From a virus, in IMG/VR virus record IMGVR_UViG_3300020204_000465, positions 1-20,400 of that record: 20,400 nucleotides of DNA. One strand, given 5' to 3'. Under the pieces are notes generated by a model. That model searched no databases. It had not been told where the DNA came from and saw only the letters and a list, made by a program, of their open reading frames with translations. How positions within the stretch are numbered: position 1 is the stretch's first letter; the number at the start of each line of letters is the position of its first letter. This document shows, piece after piece, positions 8,955-18,831 of this stretch. A program made the position numbers and the translations under genes.

Positions 8955-9283
8955 TAGCGCTCTACCCGCTCAGCCCTGACGATGACATGGTGCTTGAGGC
9001 TCTCCTGCTCGATTCCGATTACCGTATATGAATAACCGTCTGCAGTAAGGACATCTGTCTGGCTGGGGCGATCTGTGCCAGTCAGAAATGGCAACCAAAA
9101 GCGATAGACCTGCCGCTCAATTGATCCGGTCCCCGTCCGGTCGTACGATCCCTGCTGTTGCTGGTAGTGACCCTTCTTCGTCCACACGGTAGAAGTTGTG
9201 ATTGTTGGAGTTCCGTCGGCGGCGTGTCCGGTTTGCCCCTTCCGAGTGAGTGTGACGTTTGTAGCAAACCCTGGCAGCGCCAT
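8954..9283 (-). CDS. Head-tail stopper-like connector protein
   Basis: A 109-residue, mostly beta protein (NVTLTRKGQTGHAADGTPTI, then QVYRFWLPFLTG and DVLTADGYSYTVIGIEQESL, ending VIVRAERVER). The size, the beta content, and the final 'x-L-x-A-x-G-x-x-Y-x-V-x-G' strand pattern are like SPP1 gp16/HK97 gp7-type stoppers, which close the portal channel until the tail attaches. The order adaptor, stopper, gp10-like, then tail completion is standard. It overlaps both neighbours by TAATG junctions. Confidence 0.66.
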   Translation of the reverse strand: MALPGFATNVTLTRKGQTGHAADGTPTITTSTVWTKKGHYQQQQGSYDRTGTGSIERQVYRFWLPFLTGTDRPSQTDVLTADGYSYTVIGIEQESLKHHVIVRAERVER

Positions 9284-10194
9284 TAGCGCACCGAGATAAA
9301 CCGATAAGGATCAAGAATGGTGCATGCAGCAGATGGAACCTGCAAGACACTTGCACCACTAGCCGGTTTGTCGGAATACATCTCCATCTCTCCAACGCGT
9401 AGTCGTGAAAGACCGGTCAGCCCCTGCTTCGCAAGGCTGTCTCTTGCAATCATGTCAACTGCGGTAAGTGCAACAGCATCCTTTATGTCTGTGGGCGTGT
9501 ATTGATAACCGTGGGTATAAGTGATTTGAGCCACAGGCTCAATAAGCCCAAGGGCTACAATCGCTGGGAATAGCGAGTAAGTCACGTTTGCAAGGCTCGT
9601 GATCTCTACATACCCACGGTCAGCATTGATGTAAATATCATTGACTGTAAACGCTGCATTCTGCTGATTGCTCACATAGACGACGAATGAACTGACGGCA
9701 ACAATCGGTTTTTCTCGGGGGTATACGCGACGACTCTTCTGATTCCAGACGTGGCGCTCAGTTGTTTGGCGATACTGGAAGGAATAGCCGACATAGGCAT
9801 CAACAAGTCTGGATGCAGTTCCAATAAACGAGTCAATCGCGGCATCGGTGAGGGCAGTGCCAGAGGCGTCGGTGAGATCGCCAAGTTGATAGTCTCTGAA
9901 TTCCTCAGCGGTCAGATATCCAAGGGTTTTCCCACGGGTCGTGGTATAGGCGCTTGCCGCGCTTGTGGAGCTGTTGAAGAGGCGATAGGTGTGGAAATGG
10001 CCCTCTGCGGCCCCCTCGTCGTCGTACTGGTATGTGCTTACGGTTGGAACAAGGGTCACAACCTGACCAAGGTTTGCCCACGTTCCTGTCTTGGCGTCGG
10101 CATCTGCCTTGGTGCTTGCCCTGCCGATCTCAATCTTGTTATAGGAAGCGATCTGCGTGGCGATATCTGTGACTGGGATCTGTACTCTGATCAT
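9283..10194 (-). CDS. Head-tail adaptor with N-terminal Fn3/Ig-like domain
   Basis: A 303-residue protein in two parts. Residues 1-88 (SYNKIEIGRAS..., W39 and LGQVVTLVP, then the motif HTYRLFNSSTSAASAY) have the strand pattern of a fibronectin type III or Ig-like module. Residues about 92-303 resemble gp6/gp15-type connector proteins: LTAEEFRDYQLGDLTD, then ALTDAAIDSFIGTASRLVDA, the helical bundle that binds the portal. The ATG has only a weak upstream AAGG but sits exactly 6 nt after a -10-like GACAAT, suggesting a leaderless transcript. It starts the three-gene connector operon. The adaptor call is fairly firm from order and helices; the Fn3 call is by eye. Confidence 0.72.
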   Translation of the reverse strand: MIRVQIPVTDIATQIASYNKIEIGRASTKADADAKTGTWANLGQVVTLVPTVSTYQYDDEGAAEGHFHTYRLFNSSTSAASAYTTTRGKTLGYLTAEEFRDYQLGDLTDASGTALTDAAIDSFIGTASRLVDAYVGYSFQYRQTTERHVWNQKSRRVYPREKPIVAVSSFVVYVSNQQNAAFTVNDIYINADRGYVEITSLANVTYSLFPAIVALGLIEPVAQITYTHGYQYTPTDIKDAVALTAVDMIARDSLAKQGLTGLSRLRVGEMEMYSDKPASGASVLQVPSAACTILDPYRFISVR

Positions 10195-10200
10195 GCCTTG

Positions 10201-10229
10201 ATTGTCGCGCGAATGACCCCTTTAGTCTA
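10201..10229 (-). promoter_or_regulatory. Candidate leaderless promoter of the connector operon
   Basis: -35 TAGACT (10229-10224), a 17-bp spacer, and -10 GACAAT (10206-10201); each hexamer has four of six consensus bases. The ATG at 10194 is 6 nt beyond, so the predicted +1 is its first base. The -35 is framed by two ACCCCTTT direct repeats. Confidence 0.42.
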
Positions 10230-10236
10230 CCCCTTT
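10216..10236 (+). repeat. Tandem direct repeats ACCCCTTT
   Basis: Two exact copies of ACCCCTTT at 10216-10223 and 10229-10236, 13 bp apart start to start. They overlap both ends of the leftward -35 and lie just upstream of the rightward glycosyltransferase promoter, as a shared activator or repressor site would. Confidence 0.45.
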
Positions 10237-10250
10237 TTGATCTACCACTA

Positions 10251-10259
10251 TGCTAGAAT
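10251..10259 (+). promoter_or_regulatory. Extended -10 promoter of the glycosyltransferase
   Basis: TGCTAGAAT, an extended -10 (TGnTAnAAT). No good -35 is present. The predicted start at about 10266 leaves a leader of about 13 nt that still contains the GGGAGG ribosome-binding site. Confidence 0.5.
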
Positions 10260-10278
10260 CTGGGCACAGGGAGGTTCA

Positions 10279-11145
10279 ATGGGCAAAAAGGCTAGAGAGA
10301 ATCGAGAGCGCCAGATCGCCGAGGAACAAGCCGCAGCTAGCCAAGATCTTCCGAAGGTCTGGGTATCCACGCCGTCCCTAGACGGGAATATGTCGTGGGG
10401 GTATACAAAAACTGTTCTTGACATTCAGCGTGCATGCTCTAAGTTTGGGCTGAAGTTTGGATGGCGAATTGTTTGGGGAAATTCAATCCTCCCGCTGGCA
10501 CGCAACAGGATTGTGCAGCAGTTTATGTCAACAGGATATGACTTTCTTGTCATGCTTGATGGCGATATTGAGGTTGATGCCAAGGACATCATGGGGGCAG
10601 TTCTTAGCGGCAAACAGTTTGTTGCAATCCCGTGCTCAAAGCGTGCAATGAACTTTGACCGCCTGCAGCAATTTACACTTGCTGCAGGAAAAGACGTTCC
10701 GTCACACTTCCTATCGTCTTACTTCTGCCCGCCAAACTTCATTGTAGGAGAGGATTCAACGAAGGATCTTGATCAGATAGCAACGGATCTTAATCTCGTG
10801 CGGGCAGAGAAGGTTGGAACTGGATGTGTGATTCTACACCGATCAGTATTTGAGAAGTTCCAAGAAGCATTCCCAGGCAGGGCTTATCTTGAGCCAAATA
10901 TGGAAGCAAAGGACCCCAAAAAGGCGGCTCCAATACAGACCTTTGAATATTTCCGTTACAGCAAGGATGCGGAGGGGTTCTTCATCGGCGAGGATTACAC
11001 TTTCTGCGAGGACTGGAAAGGGCTTGGCGGAGAAATCTGGCTCAAGGTTGATGCGATCACAAGGCACTATGGCCTTACTCACTTCTCATGGGATGCCGCC
11101 GCCCTGCAGCCAGTAAGCGTCAACTTTGACGGCGAGGCCGAGTAG
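10279..11145 (+). CDS. GT-A type glycosyltransferase
   Basis: A 288-residue protein with a charged 25-residue start, then an alpha/beta domain. LARNRIVQQFM is followed by a metal-binding DxD motif, D94-G95-D96, in FLVMLDGDIEVD. The C-terminal part has GTGCVILHRSVFEK and GEDYTFCEDWKGLGGEIW (acidic E238-D239), then H263 in DAITRHYG, the usual acceptor-side and final-His pattern of GT-A enzymes in phages. It would move a sugar from a nucleotide-sugar to a virion protein, phage DNA, or the host surface; the target cannot be read from sequence. The start has CAGGGAGG four bases upstream, identical to the HTH gene's start. It lies in opposite orientation between adaptor and capsid genes, and its last 26 bp overlap the convergent small gene. 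Confidence 0.83.
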   Translation: MGKKARENRERQIAEEQAAASQDLPKVWVSTPSLDGNMSWGYTKTVLDIQRACSKFGLKFGWRIVWGNSILPLARNRIVQQFMSTGYDFLVMLDGDIEVDAKDIMGAVLSGKQFVAIPCSKRAMNFDRLQQFTLAAGKDVPSHFLSSYFCPPNFIVGEDSTKDLDQIATDLNLVRAEKVGTGCVILHRSVFEKFQEAFPGRAYLEPNMEAKDPKKAAPIQTFEYFRYSKDAEGFFIGEDYTFCEDWKGLGGEIWLKVDAITRHYGLTHFSWDAAALQPVSVNFDGEAE

Positions 11146-11356
11146 TCCTTTTGCAACCGAGGTTGTAAGCCTCGTTTAAATTCTTCCTGTGGATGATGGC
11201 GATACCATTCTTAAAGTGGTAGCTAGTGCCATCTGGGAATACGATGTTGCCCTCCAGCGGACCCTGTACCTGCACCTTCTGAAATGGGTCGTATCTCTCT
11301 ACCGCTTGGCGCAAAATCTTCTTAGCCAGTTTATAGGGGTCTGTGGGATTTGTCAT
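11120..11356 (-). CDS. Small unknown protein in head gene cluster
   Basis: A 78-residue protein I do not recognise: a charged N-terminal helix (YKLAKKILRQAVERYDPFQ), a beta-like middle (GNIVFPDGTSYHFKNGIAII), and a basic tail (CKRTTRPRRQS). No Shine-Dalgarno precedes the ATG, but an extended -10, TGTTAGCAT, ends 6 nt before it. It lies between the capsid terminator hairpin and the glycosyltransferase 3' end, in the place where head decoration proteins or small connectors often sit. That location is the only functional hint. Confidence 0.6.
   Translation of the reverse strand: MTNPTDPYKLAKKILRQAVERYDPFQKVQVQGPLEGNIVFPDGTSYHFKNGIAIIHRKNLNEAYNLGCKRTTRPRRQS
11158..11177 (+). terminator. Weak terminator-like hairpin after glycosyltransferase
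   Basis: CGAGG-n7-CCTCG, followed by TTTAAATT, begins 13 bp after the glycosyltransferase stop. The stem is short (5 bp). It lies inside the coding region of the convergent small gene. Confidence 0.35.
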
Positions 11357-11362
11357 ATTCAG

Positions 11363-11371
11363 ATGCTAACA
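11363..11371 (-). promoter_or_regulatory. Extended -10 promoter of the small head-cluster gene
   Basis: Leftward TGTTAGCAT (11371-11363), a TGn-extended -10 that ends 6 nt before ATG 11356, placing the predicted +1 on the start codon. No -35 is recognisable; that position is filled by the capsid terminator hairpin. Confidence 0.42.
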
Positions 11372-11403
11372 GGAAGGGGTCGGGCTTTCGCCCGACCCCT
11401 TCC
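11372..11403. terminator. Perfect 14-bp hairpin between capsid gene and next gene
   Basis: The arms 11372-11385 and 11390-11403 are perfectly complementary over 14 bp (core GGGGTCGGGC/GCCCGACCCC) with a 4-nt loop: TTTC on plus, and GAAA, a GNRA tetraloop, on the minus strand that carries the capsid message. There is no T run on either side. It lies 22 bp beyond the capsid stop and most likely ends or protects the capsid transcript. Confidence 0.72.
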
Positions 11404-11409
11404 CAGATC

Positions 11410-11427
11410 AATCGTCAATTGACGATT
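11410..11427. repeat. 18-bp perfect palindrome over the capsid stop codon
   Basis: AATCGTCAATTGACGATT is its own reverse complement over 18 bp and includes two bases of the capsid stop codon. It is separated by 6 bp from the 14-bp hairpin. It could fold in RNA as a second 3' structure or serve as a binding site for a dimeric protein. Confidence 0.6.
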
Positions 11428-12661
11428 AGACCGTTACGCGAACCTTCGCGTTGAACTGCGGACCCTTGTTCGCAAGACCAAACATCACATACATGATGTA
11501 GAGGCGCGAAAGGGCACCGGCGACCCCAACAGGGATCTCAAGGGTCGTGATGCTATCCGCACCAAGGTACGGCATGCTCCACGTGTCCTCGTCCACGATA
11601 TACATATCGCGGTAGTTCGCGGTCGTTGGTGAGGTGACGGTGTACGAGCCGATTGCATCGCCAGCGACCGCAAGGAGCGGCAGGGAGCCAGCAGCCGTAA
11701 CGACCGAGCCGAACGTCGCACCTGCGGCCTGATCGGCCTGTGCAGGGGCGTTGTAACGGACAAGGTTCGTCAACTCATTGACGAGACCAGCGTAATCCGT
11801 TGGCGAGCATAGGATCGCCGACGGGTTTCCGCCGTTATCAAGCACCGAGGCAACAGCGGTGTTGATGGTCGCGAGATAGGCAGCGGTGCCCTTCGTCGCG
11901 ATTACACCAGAACCAGCGGCTGTCCCGAGGAGCTTGCGAAGACCATCAAACCCGTTCGCATCGTATGCGCCGAGCTCAGCGGTTGCGGCTGCACCAGTGA
12001 CGGTGGTCGCGTTACCCTGGAAGAGGGTCTTCTGAAGCTTGTGCGCAATGGCAGTGACGCCACCGGCAAGTTCAGATGAAAGACCATTGAATGGCGAGCC
12101 ACCCTGTGTAAGGGCGAACTGGCTCTTCAGCGTGATTCCTCGGCGGGTAGCAAGCACGGCGACATTGGTCGTCTGGCGTACATACGTGTTGGAATCATCG
12201 GTCACGGTGCCGGTCTCCGTCTGGAAGACGGCGTCACCGTAAGCGGTCTGCTGGTTGAACGCGTGCACGAGGCCGTTTGCAGGCTCCTTGCGGATGCGCT
12301 CAAAGAATGGGAAGCGCTTTACAAACAGCGAATAAAGGATTGGCTCAAGGTCCTGTCGGATAAGAGCCGTTCCGCCGCTGCTGTCCAGCAACTTCGTGAT
12401 GTTCGGATTCGCTGTCGCAAGTCGGTTAAGGATATCGGCCGAAGCCTGCTTCCCCGTCTCGCGACCGGCCTGGATGTCCAGAGCCTCACCGAGTTCAGCC
12501 GTGTTCATCTTTGAGAACTTCTTGCGAAGTTCGCGCTGAACGGCATATGCCTCGGCGACGTTGAGATCATCGCCAGCCTCGCGGCCGACGATTGCGGTGT
12601 CGTTCAAGGAATCAAGTCCCTTCTGAACGTCCTGCAGCTTCTCTCGAAGTGCGTCGCTCAT
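11426..12661 (-). CDS. Major capsid protein, HK97 fold
   Basis: A 411-residue protein. Residues 1-85 are a charged helical region (LREKLQDVQKGLDSL, then VQRELRKKFSKMNTAELGEA), as in delta domains that act as internal scaffold and are often removed by the prohead protease. The folded part follows: DLEPILYSLFVKRFPFFERI (N-arm), QTETGTVTDDSNTYVRQTTNVA and ITLKSQFALTQGG (E-loop and spine region), a Gly/Ala/Thr-rich domain, and the C-terminal ADSITTLEIPVGVAGALSRLYI. AGGAG lies 8-9 bases before ATG 12661, within the last codons of the protease gene 5 bp away. The order protease, capsid, connector supports the call. The gene ends in an 18-bp palindrome and a strong hairpin. Confidence 0.9.
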   Translation of the reverse strand: MSDALREKLQDVQKGLDSLNDTAIVGREAGDDLNVAEAYAVQRELRKKFSKMNTAELGEALDIQAGRETGKQASADILNRLATANPNITKLLDSSGGTALIRQDLEPILYSLFVKRFPFFERIRKEPANGLVHAFNQQTAYGDAVFQTETGTVTDDSNTYVRQTTNVAVLATRRGITLKSQFALTQGGSPFNGLSSELAGGVTAIAHKLQKTLFQGNATTVTGAAATAELGAYDANGFDGLRKLLGTAAGSGVIATKGTAAYLATINTAVASVLDNGGNPSAILCSPTDYAGLVNELTNLVRYNAPAQADQAAGATFGSVVTAAGSLPLLAVAGDAIGSYTVTSPTTANYRDMYIVDEDTWSMPYLGADSITTLEIPVGVAGALSRLYIMYVMFGLANKGPQFNAKVRVTV

Positions 12662-12666
12662 GTTTT

Positions 12667-13542
12667 TTACTCCTGTGCGTCAAGAAGACGCGCGATGAAC
12701 GGGTCAAGCCACGGGGCCTTCTCACCGTTCGTTGATTTTTCCGAATTGATTGCTACTTGCTTTCGGCCCATTGGGACGTTGATCATGCGACCAACTAGAT
12801 CCAGAGCCCTAGCAAGTTCTCCCTCGACCTTGGCCTTCTCCGCAGACAGTTCGGTAACCACGGACTTAACCGCAACGACCTCCTGCTGCGCAGCAATGGC
12901 TGCATCGAGCGCCGACTTGGCGATGGCAGCGACTTCCTCCAGAGAAGTAGCGGCAACATCTTCGGCAACCACATCTGAGGAGGCTTTGGCAGCAACCTCA
13001 GCAGGGGCTTCCTGAACGACCTCAAGGGTCACTTCAGAATCAGAAATTGGGGCCTCTTCCACCACTGGTTCGCCGTCCTTCTGGACGCCAAGACCAGCAA
13101 GAACCGCTTCACGGTCCTCATCGGTGAGATCGGCAAGAATCCCGTTGATGCCATTAAGGACCTCAGCGCTGACGCCACTCTTGTAGCGAGAGCTCTTTTC
13201 CCCATCGGCAACAGGAGCCTTGGGCTCCTCAGCGGGCTTCGGTGCGGGCGCTGGCTCAGGAGCCGGCGCTGGTGTGGGAGTTGGTGCGGGAGCTGGGGCT
13301 GGCTCAACAGCCTTCTCCACGATCTCCTCTGTTGCGACGGAAGCCTGGATCGCCTCAGGGGCGTCTTCCTCCTCCGTCTTCTCCGCCACATCGGCAGGAG
13401 CGGCAGGTTCAGCAGCTGGCTTCTCACCTTCGGTGCTGACAGTTACAGTCACGCGGGTCTTCTTTTCCGCGTCAACGACCTCATCCGCAGTGGCGGTCTC
13501 AACGACCTCCTCAGCGACGAGATCCTTCTCGGTCTCGGACAT
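12667..13542 (-). CDS. Possible internal-start scaffolding protein nested in protease gene
   Basis: An in-frame ATG (Met424 of the polyprotein) at 13542 is preceded by GAGGAG with 6 intervening bases, a better site than most starts in the window. It would give a 291-residue product, MSETEKDLVAEEVVE..., made only of the acidic/Pro-Ala linker and the helical scaffold region, which looks like a free-standing scaffold. Lambda C/Nu3 is the known precedent. The Pro-Glu-Ala linker codes by itself for GAGGAG-like strings, so this could be chance. Confidence 0.5.
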   Translation of the reverse strand: MSETEKDLVAEEVVETATADEVVDAEKKTRVTVTVSTEGEKPAAEPAAPADVAEKTEEEDAPEAIQASVATEEIVEKAVEPAPAPAPTPTPAPAPEPAPAPKPAEEPKAPVADGEKSSRYKSGVSAEVLNGINGILADLTDEDREAVLAGLGVQKDGEPVVEEAPISDSEVTLEVVQEAPAEVAAKASSDVVAEDVAATSLEEVAAIAKSALDAAIAAQQEVVAVKSVVTELSAEKAKVEGELARALDLVGRMINVPMGRKQVAINSEKSTNGEKAPWLDPFIARLLDAQE

Positions 13543-14811
13543 TTCTGTCTCCTCGTCTTCCTCCGCCTCAACGGGCGGATTGCTTCGGGTGAGTGCGCTG
13601 AACTTTACAGCAACATACACACCAGTTTCTTCCCAGTCTTCGCCCTGCGGGGCGTAGACGCAGATAATTGCCACCGGTTCTTCCGGTGAGGCATCAATTG
13701 GCATATCGGAACCAGGCAGGGAAACTGTTCCCGCGATGACGATTTCATCAACCTCACCATATCCTTTTTGACTGCCGATATTCCAATTTACGTAATCTCC
13801 AACCTCTAGTTGACCAGCAGCAGCCTTAATCTCGCTTTTCTTTCCAGAATAGCGCGGATGCCCAGGGTTCAAGAGGTCGTTGTCTGAAGTGTATTTAGGG
13901 TTCGCTGGCTTACCTCTTCGAGCAAGAACAAGGAAGGCATTTACTCGCGCCATTGACCATGCTGCTCGGCTGACGCCAGGGCGGTGACTGGTTGAGTATG
14001 CGCCAGAACCGCGACGATACACAGATCGCAGGGCGCCGACCCTCACCCTTGTCCAGCTTGGGCGGTCGTCCTCTTTCATCGCAGCATTGTGCTCATTCGC
14101 TTTATTTTGAAGAGCTTTTCTAGTAGCGCTGCTGAGAGAAATCCTGCCACCCTGACCAGATGCAGATCCTGGAGGATTTCTATCGCTTCCAACTCTCTGA
14201 TCACTCGCTGGGGCGGGAGCATCTGCTTTATCAAGCGAGTTATCAAAATAATCTTCTGCAATCTCGTCCTCGTCAGATTTCTCAGACTGCCTAATGCTTT
14301 TTAGGGCGCTTTGGAGATATGAGCGCTGATTGGCTGGAATGCCAACGACGGAAGTCTCAAGGAGCTTAACGCTCTCAATGACGTAGGTGTCTTCGCCGTC
14401 CGCGCCTTTCTTCTTGGAAACCTTATCAACCTTGGCTCCAATGGAAAGGCCGAGCTTGACGCCGCGCTTGATAGCACGGTAGGTCTTCATGGCAAGGGGG
14501 TTCTCGTCTTCGCCGACAACGCGGACATCAATATCGAGGTCGTAGACCTCTTGCTCGGTTTCCCTGTCAAGGCGCTTTACAATGCGCGCATCAGTTACTG
14601 AACCAAAGAGGTCGTCAGGAACATTGTAGTTGTGGTTAAGGAAGACCGTCATGTTCTTTTTTGCGGTTTCTTCCATTGATTTAAGCGCCGAAAGTGTCAT
14701 TTCGTCGCCGTGAAGGTCTCGGATTGTTGATGAGGTCGTCCCGCGAACGTACAGGTCACCGTTCTCGGCGGTATAAGCCTTCAACGCACTCGTATAAAGT
14801 TTAAAGTCCAC
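12667..14811 (-). CDS. Prohead protease fused to accessory modules and scaffold
   Basis: A 714-residue polyprotein. Residues 1-170 are an S78/HK97-type prohead protease: H60 in VFLNHNYNVPDDLFGSV and S123 in KLGLSIGAKV fit the catalytic His and Ser, and LLETSVVGIPANQRS is the usual end. Residues about 205-322 hold a phage module (GSDRNPPGSASGQGG, then LRSVYRRGSGAYSTSHRPG, then AWSMARVNAFLVLARRGKP and NDLLNPGHPR). Residues about 333-410 (LEVGDYVNWNIGSQKGYGEV...) resemble a Tudor-like HVA1/DUF2945 barrel. An acidic and Pro-Ala linker (415-540) and a helical scaffold region (540-714) follow. The start is GTG, with GGAGG close upstream. The protein should cut the capsid delta domain and itself during head maturation. 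It is far longer than stand-alone S78 proteases (about 200 residues). Confidence 0.88.
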   Translation of the reverse strand: MDFKLYTSALKAYTAENGDLYVRGTTSSTIRDLHGDEMTLSALKSMEETAKKNMTVFLNHNYNVPDDLFGSVTDARIVKRLDRETEQEVYDLDIDVRVVGEDENPLAMKTYRAIKRGVKLGLSIGAKVDKVSKKKGADGEDTYVIESVKLLETSVVGIPANQRSYLQSALKSIRQSEKSDEDEIAEDYFDNSLDKADAPAPASDQRVGSDRNPPGSASGQGGRISLSSATRKALQNKANEHNAAMKEDDRPSWTRVRVGALRSVYRRGSGAYSTSHRPGVSRAAWSMARVNAFLVLARRGKPANPKYTSDNDLLNPGHPRYSGKKSEIKAAAGQLEVGDYVNWNIGSQKGYGEVDEIVIAGTVSLPGSDMPIDASPEEPVAIICVYAPQGEDWEETGVYVAVKFSALTRSNPPVEAEEDEETEMSETEKDLVAEEVVETATADEVVDAEKKTRVTVTVSTEGEKPAAEPAAPADVAEKTEEEDAPEAIQASVATEEIVEKAVEPAPAPAPTPTPAPAPEPAPAPKPAEEPKAPVADGEKSSRYKSGVSAEVLNGINGILADLTDEDREAVLAGLGVQKDGEPVVEEAPISDSEVTLEVVQEAPAEVAAKASSDVVAEDVAATSLEEVAAIAKSALDAAIAAQQEVVAVKSVVTELSAEKAKVEGELARALDLVGRMINVPMGRKQVAINSEKSTNGEKAPWLDPFIARLLDAQE
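13222..13305 (-). repeat. Pro-Ala low-complexity repeat in protease linker
   Basis: Codes for residues 503-530, an alternating Pro-Ala/Pro-Thr run (PAPAPAPTPTPAPAPEPAPAP) at the DNA level made of degenerate GGNGCN-type units. Stiff Pro-Ala linkers separate domains. The stretch may vary in length between relatives. Confidence 0.75.
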
Positions 14812-14841
14812 GGAGCCTCCGTTGCTATATTGACTTTACCA

Positions 14842-14870
14842 ATAATTAACCGAGGGTTTACCTGAGTCAA
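14842..14870 (-). promoter_or_regulatory. Candidate promoter for protease-capsid operon
   Basis: -35 TTGACT (14870-14865), a 17-bp spacer, and -10-like AATTAT (14847-14842). The predicted start near 14835 gives a 24-nt leader with CGGAGG. The rest of the 213-bp divergent region (14812-15024) holds AGGTG...CACCT (14872-14891) and CCGAA-n4-TTCGG inverted repeats and the rightward -10 at 15013; no gene is seen in it. Confidence 0.45.
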
Positions 14871-15009
14871 GAGGTGATGTTTCTACCACCTTTTGGCGCA
14901 TTTACCGAACCCTTTCGGGATAATACACCAGATTGTAACATATCGTGCTTGCCTGTACGATCTGCGGGTAAGACTCCTTAACTGAACCTAAACTAAATCT
15001 TAACATTCG

Positions 15010-15018
15010 TGCTATAAT
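15010..15018 (+). promoter_or_regulatory. Extended -10 TGCTATAAT, leaderless promoter
   Basis: A perfect extended -10 (TGnTATAAT) whose last base is 6 nt from ATG 15025, so the predicted +1 is the A of the start codon. There is no -35 match and no Shine-Dalgarno. This is the clearest leaderless start in the window. Confidence 0.65.
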
Positions 15019-15024
15019 CAAGCC

Positions 15025-15522
15025 ATGTCGCAGTGCTCGCTATGCAGTGAAATTAACTACTCTGGCGATCAGATCAAGGATCTGGCTAGGGCGCTGATCC
15101 GACTCCAGCGACAGATTCAGCCGGTCATAGAGTCCTATGAGAGGGGTAGAAGGTCCCACCCGCGATGCGCCTCCTGCGGCATCCTCGCTGGCTCTGAGCA
15201 CATTGTGACCGAGTTGGTCCCAGAACCCATGATCCCCAGGGCTCGTGGGCAGAAGCGGTACAATGTCTGCCACTGGTGCTATGCCGACCTTCACAAGAGC
15301 CGACAGAGCGTCCCGCAGCGTCGGAAGATTGCCATCCAGGTGGATGAGATGCTGAAGGGGGAGGACGAGGAGACAGCAGACACAGATATTGACAGCATCA
15401 TGCGAGCCATTCACAATGAGCTTGCAATATTTGGCAGTGCAGCCACTCACCGCAGGCCGGAGCCTGGGGCGATTGACCCAGTTGAGGACATAGACCCAGA
15501 AGATGCTGATTCCTGGCGTTGA
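15025..15522 (+). CDS. Zinc-finger protein of unknown role upstream of portal
   Basis: A 165-residue protein with three Cys pairs: C4-x2-C7, C48-x2-C51 and C82-x2-C85, plus H90, enough for one or two zinc sites. The middle (HPRCASCGILAGSEHIVTELV, then KRYNVCHWCYADLHKS) is reminiscent of HNH-type zinc-bound scaffolds, but no full HNH catalytic motif is visible. The C-terminal 50 residues are acidic and ordered poorly (GAIDPVEDIDPEDADSW). It is first in the operon that contains the portal, from a leaderless-type promoter, and overlaps the next gene by 20 bp. I do not know the family; terminase small subunit or DNA-binding packaging factor are guesses from place only. Confidence 0.78.
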   Translation: MSQCSLCSEINYSGDQIKDLARALIRLQRQIQPVIESYERGRRSHPRCASCGILAGSEHIVTELVPEPMIPRARGQKRYNVCHWCYADLHKSRQSVPQRRKIAIQVDEMLKGEDEETADTDIDSIMRAIHNELAIFGSAATHRRPEPGAIDPVEDIDPEDADSWR

Positions 15523-15727
15523 TTCAACGATTGAGGTTCAGTTCACAGACGGAACTTTCGTCGTGCCAATACACTGGACGAATGCCCTTAACAAGAGAAC
15601 TATAAATTATGTCAATGGACGACGTGTAGTGGATTGCACCATTGACGAAATGCGTAAATTTGTCAATACTGACGCAGTGGATACCATTTGGTTCAATGCG
15701 ATCAGGAAACAGCGTAGCGGAAGGTAG
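15503..15727 (+). CDS. Small unknown protein between zinc-finger protein and portal
   Basis: A 74-residue protein: strands at the start (STIEVQFTDGTFVVPIHWT), then a basic segment (NALNKRTINYVNGRRVVDC) and a helix with Trp (TIDEMRKFVNTDAVDTIWF). It overlaps the previous gene by 20 bp and ends 2 bp before the portal start. GAGGAC is about 12 bases before the ATG, a weak site, so coupling to upstream translation is likely. The family is not recognised. Confidence 0.62.
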   Translation: MLIPGVDSTIEVQFTDGTFVVPIHWTNALNKRTINYVNGRRVVDCTIDEMRKFVNTDAVDTIWFNAIRKQRSGR

Positions 15728-15729
15728 TC

Positions 15730-17922
15730 ATGGCAGAACAGCGATCTATCCTGCAGCGTATCTTTGGGGGCGCAGCTCGGGCGACAACCGAAAAGGCGAC
15801 ACCGTCGCTTGTTCCAGACGCCGGTCCATATGCTCGCGGCGCCTATGGTTTAAACACCGTCACCAAGATGAGTACCGAGCAACTGCGCCGATGGTCGCGC
15901 CACAATCCTTGGATTCGTGCAGCAGTAAACCTTCGCCGACAACAGATCAGCCGAGCAAAGTGGGACATTGTTACCACCGATGCTGGAGATATTGCAGATC
16001 CGCGAACCGTACAAAAACTGCGCGATCTGCTACGACGACCAAACCCAAGGGGCGACTCTTGGCGCTCATTCATTGAGCCAGTCATTGAGGACATCCTTGT
16101 CCTAGATCAGGGTGCGATTGAGGTTGAGAAAAAGGTTGGCTCTCGCGTTGGGGCAGATCCAATTGCCTACCTTTGGAACAAGGATGCGGCACGAATTGCT
16201 TTTGACACAACTTGGGACGGTCGCGATGAAAGCAAGCCGCGATACTACGAGTTGGATGGCGCGGGAAAGCAGGTTGCGACATACAAGAATGACGAGTTAG
16301 TTGTCATAATTGCAAACCCAGTTACCTACAGCCCAATCGGTCTTTCTCCACTTGAGGTTCTTGCGGAGACAATTACCGCAGACCTTGATGCTGCGGCATA
16401 CAACGCAAAGGCTGTTTCTCAGGCAGCTCCACCGGGCGTTCTACACCTTGGAGAGGGAGTTCGCCCAGATCAGGTTGATTCATTCAAGGCGTATTGGGAA
16501 GCCGAAGTTGCTGGCAAGAGCCAAATTGCAATCACGGGTGGTGGCAAGGGCATGCAGTGGCTTCCACTCGCTGCTTCAAACCGCGACATGCAGTTCATGG
16601 AGTGGCAGGTTTATCTTGCCCGAAAGATCTGTGCAGTTTTTGCCGTGCAGCCACAAGACATCGGTATTTCATTTGACATCAACAAGAGCACCGCAGAAAC
16701 CAATGCTGCGTTCACCTACGACAACGGAATTGTTCCGTTGGCTGAGTTGATTGCCGAGTATCTGACTCGAGAAGTGGTTGCCCGCTATGACAGAGACCTG
16801 CGTTTCGTCTTCACGGAGATTGGACGCACGGCACAGCAAACCATTGCCGAGTACAACAAGATGGCTCTTGGCGGACTGCCATGGCTACGCATCAACGATG
16901 CCCTTCGTGAGCGCGGTCAAGATGGGATTGGTCAGATCGGTGATCAAATCCTTTTCCAGACCCCGAAGGGATATGTCCCCTCAGACCGCTACGCTGAATA
17001 TCTTGACACGGTTGTTTTTGGATCTAGTGCGGTCAACGAGCCGCCGACGCCGGATAGCCCAGAAGATATCGGTCCACAGAACGGCGAGGATATGCAGCCA
17101 GACCCCAGTCCCAATAACACGCCGAACCAGAATCCATCGGACCTTGAGAACAAGCTTAGGCTCACGATTGAGATTGACGAGGCAAAGTCCGCTGGTGATT
17201 CCATCATTGTTGCCGATATTCAAGGCACATTGACAGCATCGGATGACAATGATCAGGTCAACGAAGTGGTTGCAGACTATCTGCGAAGAAAGTCTGAAAC
17301 GCACAGAATATTCATCGTGAGCAGCAGATCCGTGAAGCGACTGCAAGAGACCGAGGAATGGCTTGATGAAAACGACATTCCACACGATGTCGTTCATTTG
17401 AGCGATTTCCCCGCTGGTGCTGGTCTGCAGTTCAAGAAATACAGAATGTCAAAGATCCTCAAGGAAAGCGGTAGGGTCGTTGAAGCAATTGAAAACGACG
17501 CAGATACTCGTGACGCCTATCGGGCACTTGGTGTCCCGCAGGTTCACGGACCAGAAGATGTAGCAGAAAAGCACGCTGCAGCAGACTACTCAGGGATCAG
17601 CCTGAATGTCCCGTCGGCCGTAAAGTCGGAAGCAAAACGAGGACTTGATTGGCGACGAGAATTTGGTCGCGGAGGTATTGGGCCAGGTCAGACAACTGCA
17701 CGTATGCTCATCAGCAACACAATGACGATTCCACGTGTGCGCAAAATGCGCGCATTCCTTGCTCGACATGAGGTTGACAAGCAGGGCGAAGGGTTTAGGC
17801 CCGGACAGCCGGGATTCCCATCCGCTGGTCGTATCGCATGGGCGCTCTGGGGCGGCGATCCTGGGGTTGCTTGGTCAAATAAGATTATGCGCCAAGTTGA
17901 GGCTCGCGAGCGAAAGAGTTAA
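15730..17922 (+). CDS. Portal protein fused to HAD-like domain and C-terminal module
   Basis: A 730-residue protein. Residues about 40-430 are an HK97/SPP1-type portal: NPWIRAAVNLRRQQISRAKW, LVLDQGAIEVEKKVG, SPIGLSPLEVLAETITADLD, and FAVQPQDIGISFDINKSTAE are all classic. A Pro-rich linker (435-470) leads to a HAD-like fold at about 488-620: D496-I-Q-G-T-L-T (motif I, with Gln in place of the second Asp), S531/S532 in IFIVSSRS (motif II), K575 in KKYRMSKIL (motif III), and E588-N-D590-A-D592 (motif IV). Residues about 635-730 form a module (RGLDWRREFGRGG, then AFLARHEVDKQGEGFRPGQ, then SAGRIAWALWGGDPGVAWSNKI) known at the ends of assorted phage head proteins. The start has GGAAGG close upstream. 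Usual portals have 400-550 residues. The twelve-mer would display the extra domains around the connector or capsid interior. Confidence 0.93.
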   Translation: MAEQRSILQRIFGGAARATTEKATPSLVPDAGPYARGAYGLNTVTKMSTEQLRRWSRHNPWIRAAVNLRRQQISRAKWDIVTTDAGDIADPRTVQKLRDLLRRPNPRGDSWRSFIEPVIEDILVLDQGAIEVEKKVGSRVGADPIAYLWNKDAARIAFDTTWDGRDESKPRYYELDGAGKQVATYKNDELVVIIANPVTYSPIGLSPLEVLAETITADLDAAAYNAKAVSQAAPPGVLHLGEGVRPDQVDSFKAYWEAEVAGKSQIAITGGGKGMQWLPLAASNRDMQFMEWQVYLARKICAVFAVQPQDIGISFDINKSTAETNAAFTYDNGIVPLAELIAEYLTREVVARYDRDLRFVFTEIGRTAQQTIAEYNKMALGGLPWLRINDALRERGQDGIGQIGDQILFQTPKGYVPSDRYAEYLDTVVFGSSAVNEPPTPDSPEDIGPQNGEDMQPDPSPNNTPNQNPSDLENKLRLTIEIDEAKSAGDSIIVADIQGTLTASDDNDQVNEVVADYLRRKSETHRIFIVSSRSVKRLQETEEWLDENDIPHDVVHLSDFPAGAGLQFKKYRMSKILKESGRVVEAIENDADTRDAYRALGVPQVHGPEDVAEKHAAADYSGISLNVPSAVKSEAKRGLDWRREFGRGGIGPGQTTARMLISNTMTIPRVRKMRAFLARHEVDKQGEGFRPGQPGFPSAGRIAWALWGGDPGVAWSNKIMRQVEARERKS

Positions 17923-18022: not shown

Positions 18023-18505
18023 ATGAGCCACGATTACTACCGAGCGTATCGAGAGGGACACGAGTACAACGGGCGCGTCGCCGATTACCTGAGAAGCAAG
18101 GGAATTGATTGCGAAGTCCCCGAACTAGAACTTGAATACGACCCTGCAAAGTGGTCAAGGTTCACCCGTAATGAAAAAGACATCATCCTTGCAAATGGAG
18201 ATGTTATTGAGGTGAAGTCAATCAATCAGAACTTTGGGGACGACCCAAACTCTTGGCCGCTTGAGCGAACTATCGTTGATACATACAGTGGGTTTTACGG
18301 AAAGAAAAAACGTCCAATTGCGTATGTGTTTGTAAGCAGGAAAACCGGCAGGATGCTCGCGATGTCTGCAGAAAAACCAAGTGCTTGGTGGGTTGAGCGA
18401 AAGTACGATAAGTTTCGTCAGCGAGAAGATGATTTCATCATTGCCCCAAAGAGCATGCTGCGACCTATGAACAAGCTGGTTGAATACCTAAAGAGTCGGC
18501 AGTGA
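18023..18505 (+). CDS. PD-(D/E)XK nuclease-like protein
   Basis: A 160-residue protein with the core of the restriction-endonuclease fold: a helix (HEYNGRVADYLRSKGID), then D53 in EKDIILANGD, E63-x-K65 in VIEVKS, a loop, and a second helix region after RPIAYVFVSRKTGR. D-Xn-E-X-K is the metal-binding catalytic set of this superfamily. AAGGGAGG lies 5 bases before ATG. It follows the portal by 100 bp and overlaps the HNH gene as GTGA, so the two nucleases are coupled. Role unknown: repair, packaging-end processing, or host-DNA attack are open options. The 100 bp upstream hold a possible TGCTATTTT extended -10, too weak to list separately. Confidence 0.72.
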   Translation: MSHDYYRAYREGHEYNGRVADYLRSKGIDCEVPELELEYDPAKWSRFTRNEKDIILANGDVIEVKSINQNFGDDPNSWPLERTIVDTYSGFYGKKKRPIAYVFVSRKTGRMLAMSAEKPSAWWVERKYDKFRQREDDFIIAPKSMLRPMNKLVEYLKSRQ

Positions 18506-18831
18506 AAAGATTGAGGATCAAGCAAGCCATCCGCCACAAGGACCCAGTTACCTTAGGGGTCGCCCGCGAGGTGTTCAAAAGGGACGGTGGATGCGTTGGC
18601 CCAAAGATAGGAATGATTGGAAGGTGCGGGACGCAGTTTGGCCCATCTGACAGATTTGGGCTAGAACTGGATCACGTCAATTCTTCTGGTCTGGGCAAGA
18701 GGGGGCCATCAATCCCACAGAACCTTGTCTCATTGTGCGGTCTCCATCACAGAATGAAGACCGAGCAGTCTAGGGTCTGGCGCCCGCTGATTAACAAATA
18801 TCTGAATAAGTTTTATGGTCAGGCAGAATAG
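18502..18831 (+). CDS. HNH endonuclease
   Basis: A 109-residue protein from GTG 18502, overlapping the previous stop (GTGA). Zinc-binding Cys residues C31 and C42 are followed by the HNH core: D57-H58 in LELDHVN, N74 in IPQNLVSLCG, C79, and H82-H83 in LHHRMK. REVFKRDGG is the usual pre-motif segment. Small HNH proteins beside the terminase and portal take part in DNA packaging in HK97-like phages (established). Its closeness to the portal here fits that role; a homing nuclease would more often interrupt another gene. No terminase is near. Confidence 0.86.
   Translation: MKRLRIKQAIRHKDPVTLGVAREVFKRDGGCVGPKIGMIGRCGTQFGPSDRFGLELDHVNSSGLGKRGPSIPQNLVSLCGLHHRMKTEQSRVWRPLINKYLNKFYGQAE

Follow-up and report, generated by a model that had tools for sequence, protein, structure and literature searches.

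A capless HAD-fold domain in the portal protein of an uncultured virus, a candidate non-catalytic module of the assembling head

The portal protein of Staphylococcus phage 812 has its C-terminal crown within the capsid, and contacts of the charged crown termini with the leading DNA end have been proposed (PMC12886913). Enzyme-type domains have been described on portals of other phages: PBECR RNase and 2H phosphoesterase domains are fused to portal and MuF proteins, and inactive versions of them occur too (PMC5512222). A loss of catalytic residues is also documented for the LNS2 domains of Nir1 and Nir2, which carry SIDGS instead of DxDxT and bind phosphatidic acid (PMC12419160). Portal C-termini are poorly understood, and a folded domain with a ligand pocket at this position would be relevant to the handling of the leading DNA end in packaging.

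The window analyzed here is the whole 20.4-kb stretch (20,400 nucleotides) of an uncultured virus record, in which the ORF listing gives a 730-amino-acid portal protein on the plus strand. The parts of this ORF are as follows.

15730..17922, plus strand: portal ORF, 730 amino acids, in the order core, crown, linker, HAD domain, CTD (PF04860, 1.7e-42; TIGR01537 portal_HK97, 3.6e-19; 8q7d, 1.2e-20)
15910..16911, plus strand: Phage_portal core, residues 61-394 (Pfam PF04860)
16861..17031, plus strand: residues ~378-434, putative crown (homologous to residues 437-507 of the phage 812 crown)
17032..17187, plus strand: Pro/Asn-rich variable linker, residues ~435-486 (sequence, column entropy)
17188..17595, plus strand: capless HAD-fold domain, residues ~487-622 (AF2, Foldseek against PDB and BFVD, PHROG, independent HMM)
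17605..17910, plus strand: basic CTD, residues 626-727, pI ~11 (phrog_2859, 6.6e-21; homology to the N-termini of capsid-gene products)

The Phage_portal match (146 bits against a cutoff of 39.1) identified the product as a tailed-phage portal protein, and the closest solved portal was that of phage 812 (8q7d), which aligned with positions 33-413 of the portal-family profile. A preliminary description of this DNA, made from the sequence alone, had placed a standard portal region before a Pro-rich linker, and the profile match and the linker at residues ~435-486 agree with it. In the family alignment, mean column entropy was 1.58 for the linker, 0.71 for the portal core, and 0.56 for the CTD. 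The HAD domain lies between the standard core and the strongly conserved basic CTD, and, judged from the homologous phage 812 portal, both would sit on the inward-facing C-terminus. The in-frame fusion was kept among relatives, with 64 full-length homologues; a profile search for portal-HAD fusions had been proposed in the preliminary description, which had missed the conserved CTD and the HAD-protease fusions described below.

The AF2 model of the HAD domain, built on 30 homologues, showed a pLDDT of 85 and a pTM of 0.78. A Foldseek search with this model gave 29 PDB matches at E <= 0.001, every one of them a HAD fold, and the top matches were Nir2 LNS2, T4 Pnkp phosphatase, Pnkp1, and lipin/Pah. 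The best PHROG match of the window domain was phrog_415 'polynucleotide kinase' (6.9e-9), with relatives reaching 4.9e-21. In addition, an independent HMM, trained on protease-fused or stand-alone HADs with portals left out, matched the window domain with an E value of 9.5e-25, and the best of 2000 shuffles scored 7.9 bits. AF2, Foldseek, and the profiles agree on a Rossmannoid alpha/beta fold with motifs I to IV in order, and on the predicted structure residues ~487-622 of the portal are a genuine capless HAD domain. These results bear out the proposals of a HAD-like domain in the portal and of the lack of a cap, and the fold search returned the LNS2/PNKP type as closest, as had been expected.

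The catalytic motifs of the window domain are located as follows.

17215..17229, plus strand: motif I, DIQGT, residues 496-500 (sequence, family alignment)
17320..17322, plus strand: motif II, Ser531 (Ser or Thr, with few exceptions, in relatives that keep both Asp of motif I)
17434..17436, plus strand: motif III, Lys569, not K575 (K/R in 42/42 relatives with both Asp; aligns to the PNK motif III Lys)
17491..17499, plus strand: motif IV, E588-N589-D590 (family alignment; PNKP has D-D-R)

The window keeps the nucleophile D496, a position at which several relatives have E, N, or G. The second Asp (D+2) of phosphatase-type HADs, found in 48 of the 64 sequences, is replaced by Q498; its codon CAA at 17221-17223 stands in place of the general acid/base Asp, where relatives have GAT (L003) or GAG (L016). 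L002 and L020, both near-identical contigs, show the same substitution with the same codon, so a read error is unlikely. S531 and K569 supply the motif II Ser/Thr and the motif III Lys. The preliminary description was right on motif I, including its Gln, and on S531. It had taken K575 as motif III; this residue is variable among relatives, and K569 is the one that aligns with the Lys of PNK phosphatases. Motif IV, read earlier as E588-N-D590-A-D592, has E588-N589-D590 in place of D-D and could plausibly supply the acidic metal ligand of HADs; D592 is conserved only in part. The second Asp is dispensable for activity in some HAD families, and the window domain could therefore keep partial or altered activity.

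To place these residues in the family, 64 distinct long homologues including the window were aligned, and motif states were mapped on a portal-core tree; one clade (the L270 and L273 pair) was assigned by alignment position alone. The domain was found between crown and CTD in all full-length homologues examined. Of the 64 sequences, 42 keep both motif I Asp and 22, including the window, have eroded motifs, so that the motif conservation on which the preliminary description had staked its reading holds for the former set and not for the latter. Most family members have DIDGT. Among the 42 relatives with both Asp, the D496 and D498 columns are invariant, K/R569 is present in all, and S/T531 and N589 are well kept with few exceptions; on this sequence pattern, most members of the family may be active. 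Elsewhere, D498 has become Gln (window) or Glu (L016), and the nucleophile D496 has become Glu (L015 and L018). Motif I is of the IEPESIL type in the L062 clade, reads DPIGT in L270 and L273, and is not recognisable in the L079 clade. Fitch parsimony gave at least 4 losses of D496 and at least 7 of D498 from an intact root, counts that are approximate because of midpoint rooting and some poorly supported branches. By this parsimony, the ancestor of the portal family probably had an intact-motif HAD.

Eroded HAD domains stay full length. Of the folded parts of the portal, the HAD changes fastest in the family alignment; its dN/dS was 0.02-0.2, mostly above the portal core and CTD (Nei-Gojobori; several comparisons were dS-saturated). 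Omega for the HAD was 0.10 between the window and L003, and it was 0.03-0.05 in the L079 clade, as low as in the portal core, despite total loss of motif I. The eroded L062 and L079 clades still matched the intact family by profile comparison (97% probability), and the AF2 model of the L079 HAD and CTD was of low confidence (pLDDT 64), with HADs among its non-significant fold matches only. Because the motif I Asp were lost repeatedly while length and purifying selection persist, catalysis looks dispensable and not needed everywhere in the family. No portal of the family without the domain was seen among the best 80 matches listed, which favour close relatives, and a portal search of GTDB genome contigs found no relatives. 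The HADs of this one portal family range from intact motifs to complete erosion, a natural series whose variants allow a direct test of whether catalysis is needed.

The other head genes of the window lie on the opposite strand.

12667..14811, minus strand: prohead protease, with an S78-like protease, DUF5824, a Hva1_TUDOR-like module, and an acidic tail (profile matches)
11426..12661, minus strand: major capsid protein (phrog_752, 5.6e-12)
9283..10194, minus strand: head-tail adaptor (phrog_442, 2.1e-16)

This divergent order, with the portal on one strand and protease, capsid, and adaptor on the other (9283-17922), is unusual, and it was the same in 12/12 long relatives (L119, L124, L118, L101, L104, L109, L117, L066, L068, L069, L134, and L002). 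The tail of the protease is long, acidic, Pro/Ala-rich, and scaffold-like. Directly upstream of the portal is a small conserved Cys-rich ORF (15025-15522, plus strand) with CSLC, CASC, and CHWC and without a PHROG match, and downstream an ORF at 18502-18831 (plus strand) shows a weak HNH endonuclease-like match.

The HAD of the portal family also occurs on another head protein. It is fused N-terminally to the HK97-type prohead protease (Peptidase_S78) in the uncultured phages L092, L208/L209, and L193, and it is found as stand-alone copies in L210-L213. Motif I of these protease-fused and stand-alone HADs is DIDGT or DIDDT, and they have in common with the portals a motif IV of E/D-N-D or E/D-N-N, unlike the D-D-R of PNKP. 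Among the viral structure predictions in BFVD, the HAD model matched the portal A0A6J5R7M5 and several 'Prohead protease' entries. Contig L210 (3986, 6075) carries both a basic stand-alone HAD of the portal/protease type, with the E/D-N motif IV, and a canonical PNKP-type phosphatase with DDR; thus, both types coexist.

In cultured phages, the prohead protease of Pontimonas phage phiPsal1 likewise has the CTD N-terminally, and the capsid-gene products of Roseobacter CRP-831 and Synechococcus S-CBS1 show N-terminal homology to it. Across the window and L225, L226, L227, L228, and L297, the CTD ('RHEVDK...GRIAWALWGGD') recurs C-terminally in portals, N-terminally in prohead protease or capsid-gene products, and, in Pseudomonas phage PaBG, as a small separate protein with a putative DNA-binding annotation. 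A sequence search of the PDB found no homologue of the CTD, which is helical in the low-confidence L079 model. In L192, the portal (ORF from 106, 885 amino acids) has a TUDOR-like module (PF11160) besides HAD and CTD, and a TUDOR-like module is also present in the window's own prohead protease. These similarities suggest that portal, protease, and capsid proteins of such phages draw on common small modules. In HK97-type heads, prohead proteases sit inside the procapsid. Because portal crown and prohead protease are both inside, the fusion partners of the HAD share a location, and HAD, TUDOR-like module, and CTD may mark a module set common to proteins within the prohead.

Our preferred reading, held with slightly better than even confidence, is that the window HAD is a procapsid-internal pseudoenzyme module for non-catalytic binding or assembly in the prohead. 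Because catalytic residues are lost yet the domain is kept, and because sister fusions join it to the head protease, a role inside the assembling head is indicated rather than ordinary enzyme work. With D496 kept and D498 changed to Gln, the window domain is most likely a pseudoenzyme that has presumably lost its activity and has a putative binding role. By homology to phage 812, HAD and CTD on the flexible linker would extend the crown into the capsid, and up to twelve HAD copies would ring the arrival point of the leading DNA end. Selection would act to keep the domain folded and positioned between crown and CTD rather than catalytically active. The domain would bind either a phosphate-bearing ligand (the end or backbone of DNA, or some other phosphorylated group) or a partner in the assembling head, and it would hold the CTD at the right distance. 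Phosphate recognition is perhaps retained, as in the dead-HAD LNS2 of the Nir type binding phosphatidic acid. The acidity of the domain (pI ~4.8) gives no hint of DNA binding and counts against it; true phage PNK phosphatase domains are acidic too. Acidity was rejected as an indication of a shield or DNA-mimic role because it is non-specific: the phosphatase domains of ordinary phage PNKs are no less acidic.

A further proposal, which we put forward tentatively and think rather unlikely, is that the HAD is a dedicated head-assembly module that moves between the portal C-terminus and the protease N-terminus. On portals it would have turned, or be turning, into a pseudophosphatase sensor placed where the DNA gate opens into the head. 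Such a sensor would respond, for example, to the leading DNA end or to a phosphorylated component of the head.

The main rival is an active phosphatase in the head: members with intact motifs may well dephosphorylate, for example, packaged DNA ends or nucleotides, the window version having weakened or shifted chemistry. The invariant D496 and D498 of the 42 relatives, with K/R569 and mostly S/T531 and N589, would fit this rival, as would the DIDGT or DIDDT of the protease-fused and stand-alone HADs and the polynucleotide kinases as closest profiles. In addition, no stand-alone PNKP scored above the cutoff in 15 related contigs, the portal HAD itself being their sole PNKP-type match. However, D498 was lost at least seven times and D496 at least four times with the domain retained, PNKP-specific residues are absent, and the window itself is without D498, and we consider a working phosphatase an unlikely, if serious, account of the domain. 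It is likewise rather doubtful that the HAD is purely a spacer or scaffold-like element, a ligand-free, acidic folded bead that separates crown and CTD. The drift of catalytic residues within a stable fold and between stable flanking modules, and the acidic HAD next to a basic CTD in all clades, are what a spacer would allow; but the motif residues are conserved far above the domain average in most clades, so they did something in most lineages, and canonical PNK phosphatase domains match the acidity.

An improbable reading is that HAD and CTD are cargo, cut free from a portal or protease vehicle and delivered to the host as an effector, like the polyvalent-protein portal/MuF fusions. The published PBECR RNase and 2H phosphoesterase fusions, inactive ones included (PMC5512222), are precedents, and the linker is long and unstructured, which makes this reading possible. 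It fits the stable architecture less well, since the domain set is constant across the family with no switching of effector types, a prohead-protease fusion is ill-suited to an injected effector, and the CTD is among the most conserved portal parts, unlike an arms-race effector. Finally, a coincidence of motifs in a low-complexity tail that is not a HAD is close to inconceivable, being contradicted by the PHROG and Foldseek matches and already refuted by the AF2 fold model and the independent-profile test.

We compared the domain with known systems, beginning with T4 Pnkp and the 3'-phosphatases of phage PNKs. The fold is the same (5uj0, TM 0.67-0.69; 5uj0, 2ia5, and 4xrp were among the top Foldseek matches), phrog_415 is the best PHROG match, and K569 corresponds to the motif III Lys. 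In an alignment with 9 phage PNK phosphatases, however, the R-x-P-Y-D segment after motif I, the D/N-D-x-x-V-K block, and the D-D-R motif IV were all absent from the portal HAD. The window domain did not reach the PF25109 cutoff (14.4 bits against 27.6), and neither did any of 15 relatives. Unlike a phage polynucleotide kinase, the portal HAD is without a kinase domain and is fused to a portal. Thus, the likeness to the 3'-phosphatase half of PNKs noted earlier holds for the fold, with LNS2 and PNKP closest, and not for the signature residues, and identity with PNKP was rejected because these residues are missing. The best PDB fold match was the LNS2 of Nir1/Nir2 (PITPNM) and lipins (PF24694/PF08235), also capless HADs (9jzp, E 5.6e-6), and the best Pfam match was LNS2 (PF24694, E 5.9e-6), at 26.8 bits under the gathering cutoff of 27.7. 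The window keeps the first Asp and is without the second, whereas Nir shows the reverse, and LNS2 belongs to eukaryotic lipid transfer, unlike the phage portal HAD.

Among phage proteins, A0A6J5R7M5 of an uncultured Caudovirales phage (722 amino acids; 69% identity across the HAD) very likely belongs to the same portal family; UniProt gives it the automatic label 'HAD_like domain containing protein', and no description was found in the literature searched. No paper on portal-HAD or protease-HAD fusions was found in a literature search with most subscription journals outside its scope, and a HAD search of 50,697 cultured-phage records gave only PNKs, weakly, and no portal HAD. The novelty to model phages suggested by the preliminary description holds for the HAD in those records, and not for joining an enzyme to a portal, which has a published precedent (PMC5512222); enzyme-portal fusion as such is already known, and the HAD as the fused domain is undescribed in the literature found. 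The phage 812 portal, the closest solved relative, has its crown inside the capsid near the DNA, as proposed here; it has 563 amino acids and ends at the crown and charged termini, and neither HAD nor CTD is reported there. The polyvalent-protein portal/MuF fusions resemble the window portal in joining an enzyme-type domain, in active and inactive versions, to a portal. They have the BECR or 2H fold, whereas the window family has a HAD, fixed with a conserved CTD and with sister fusions to the prohead protease.
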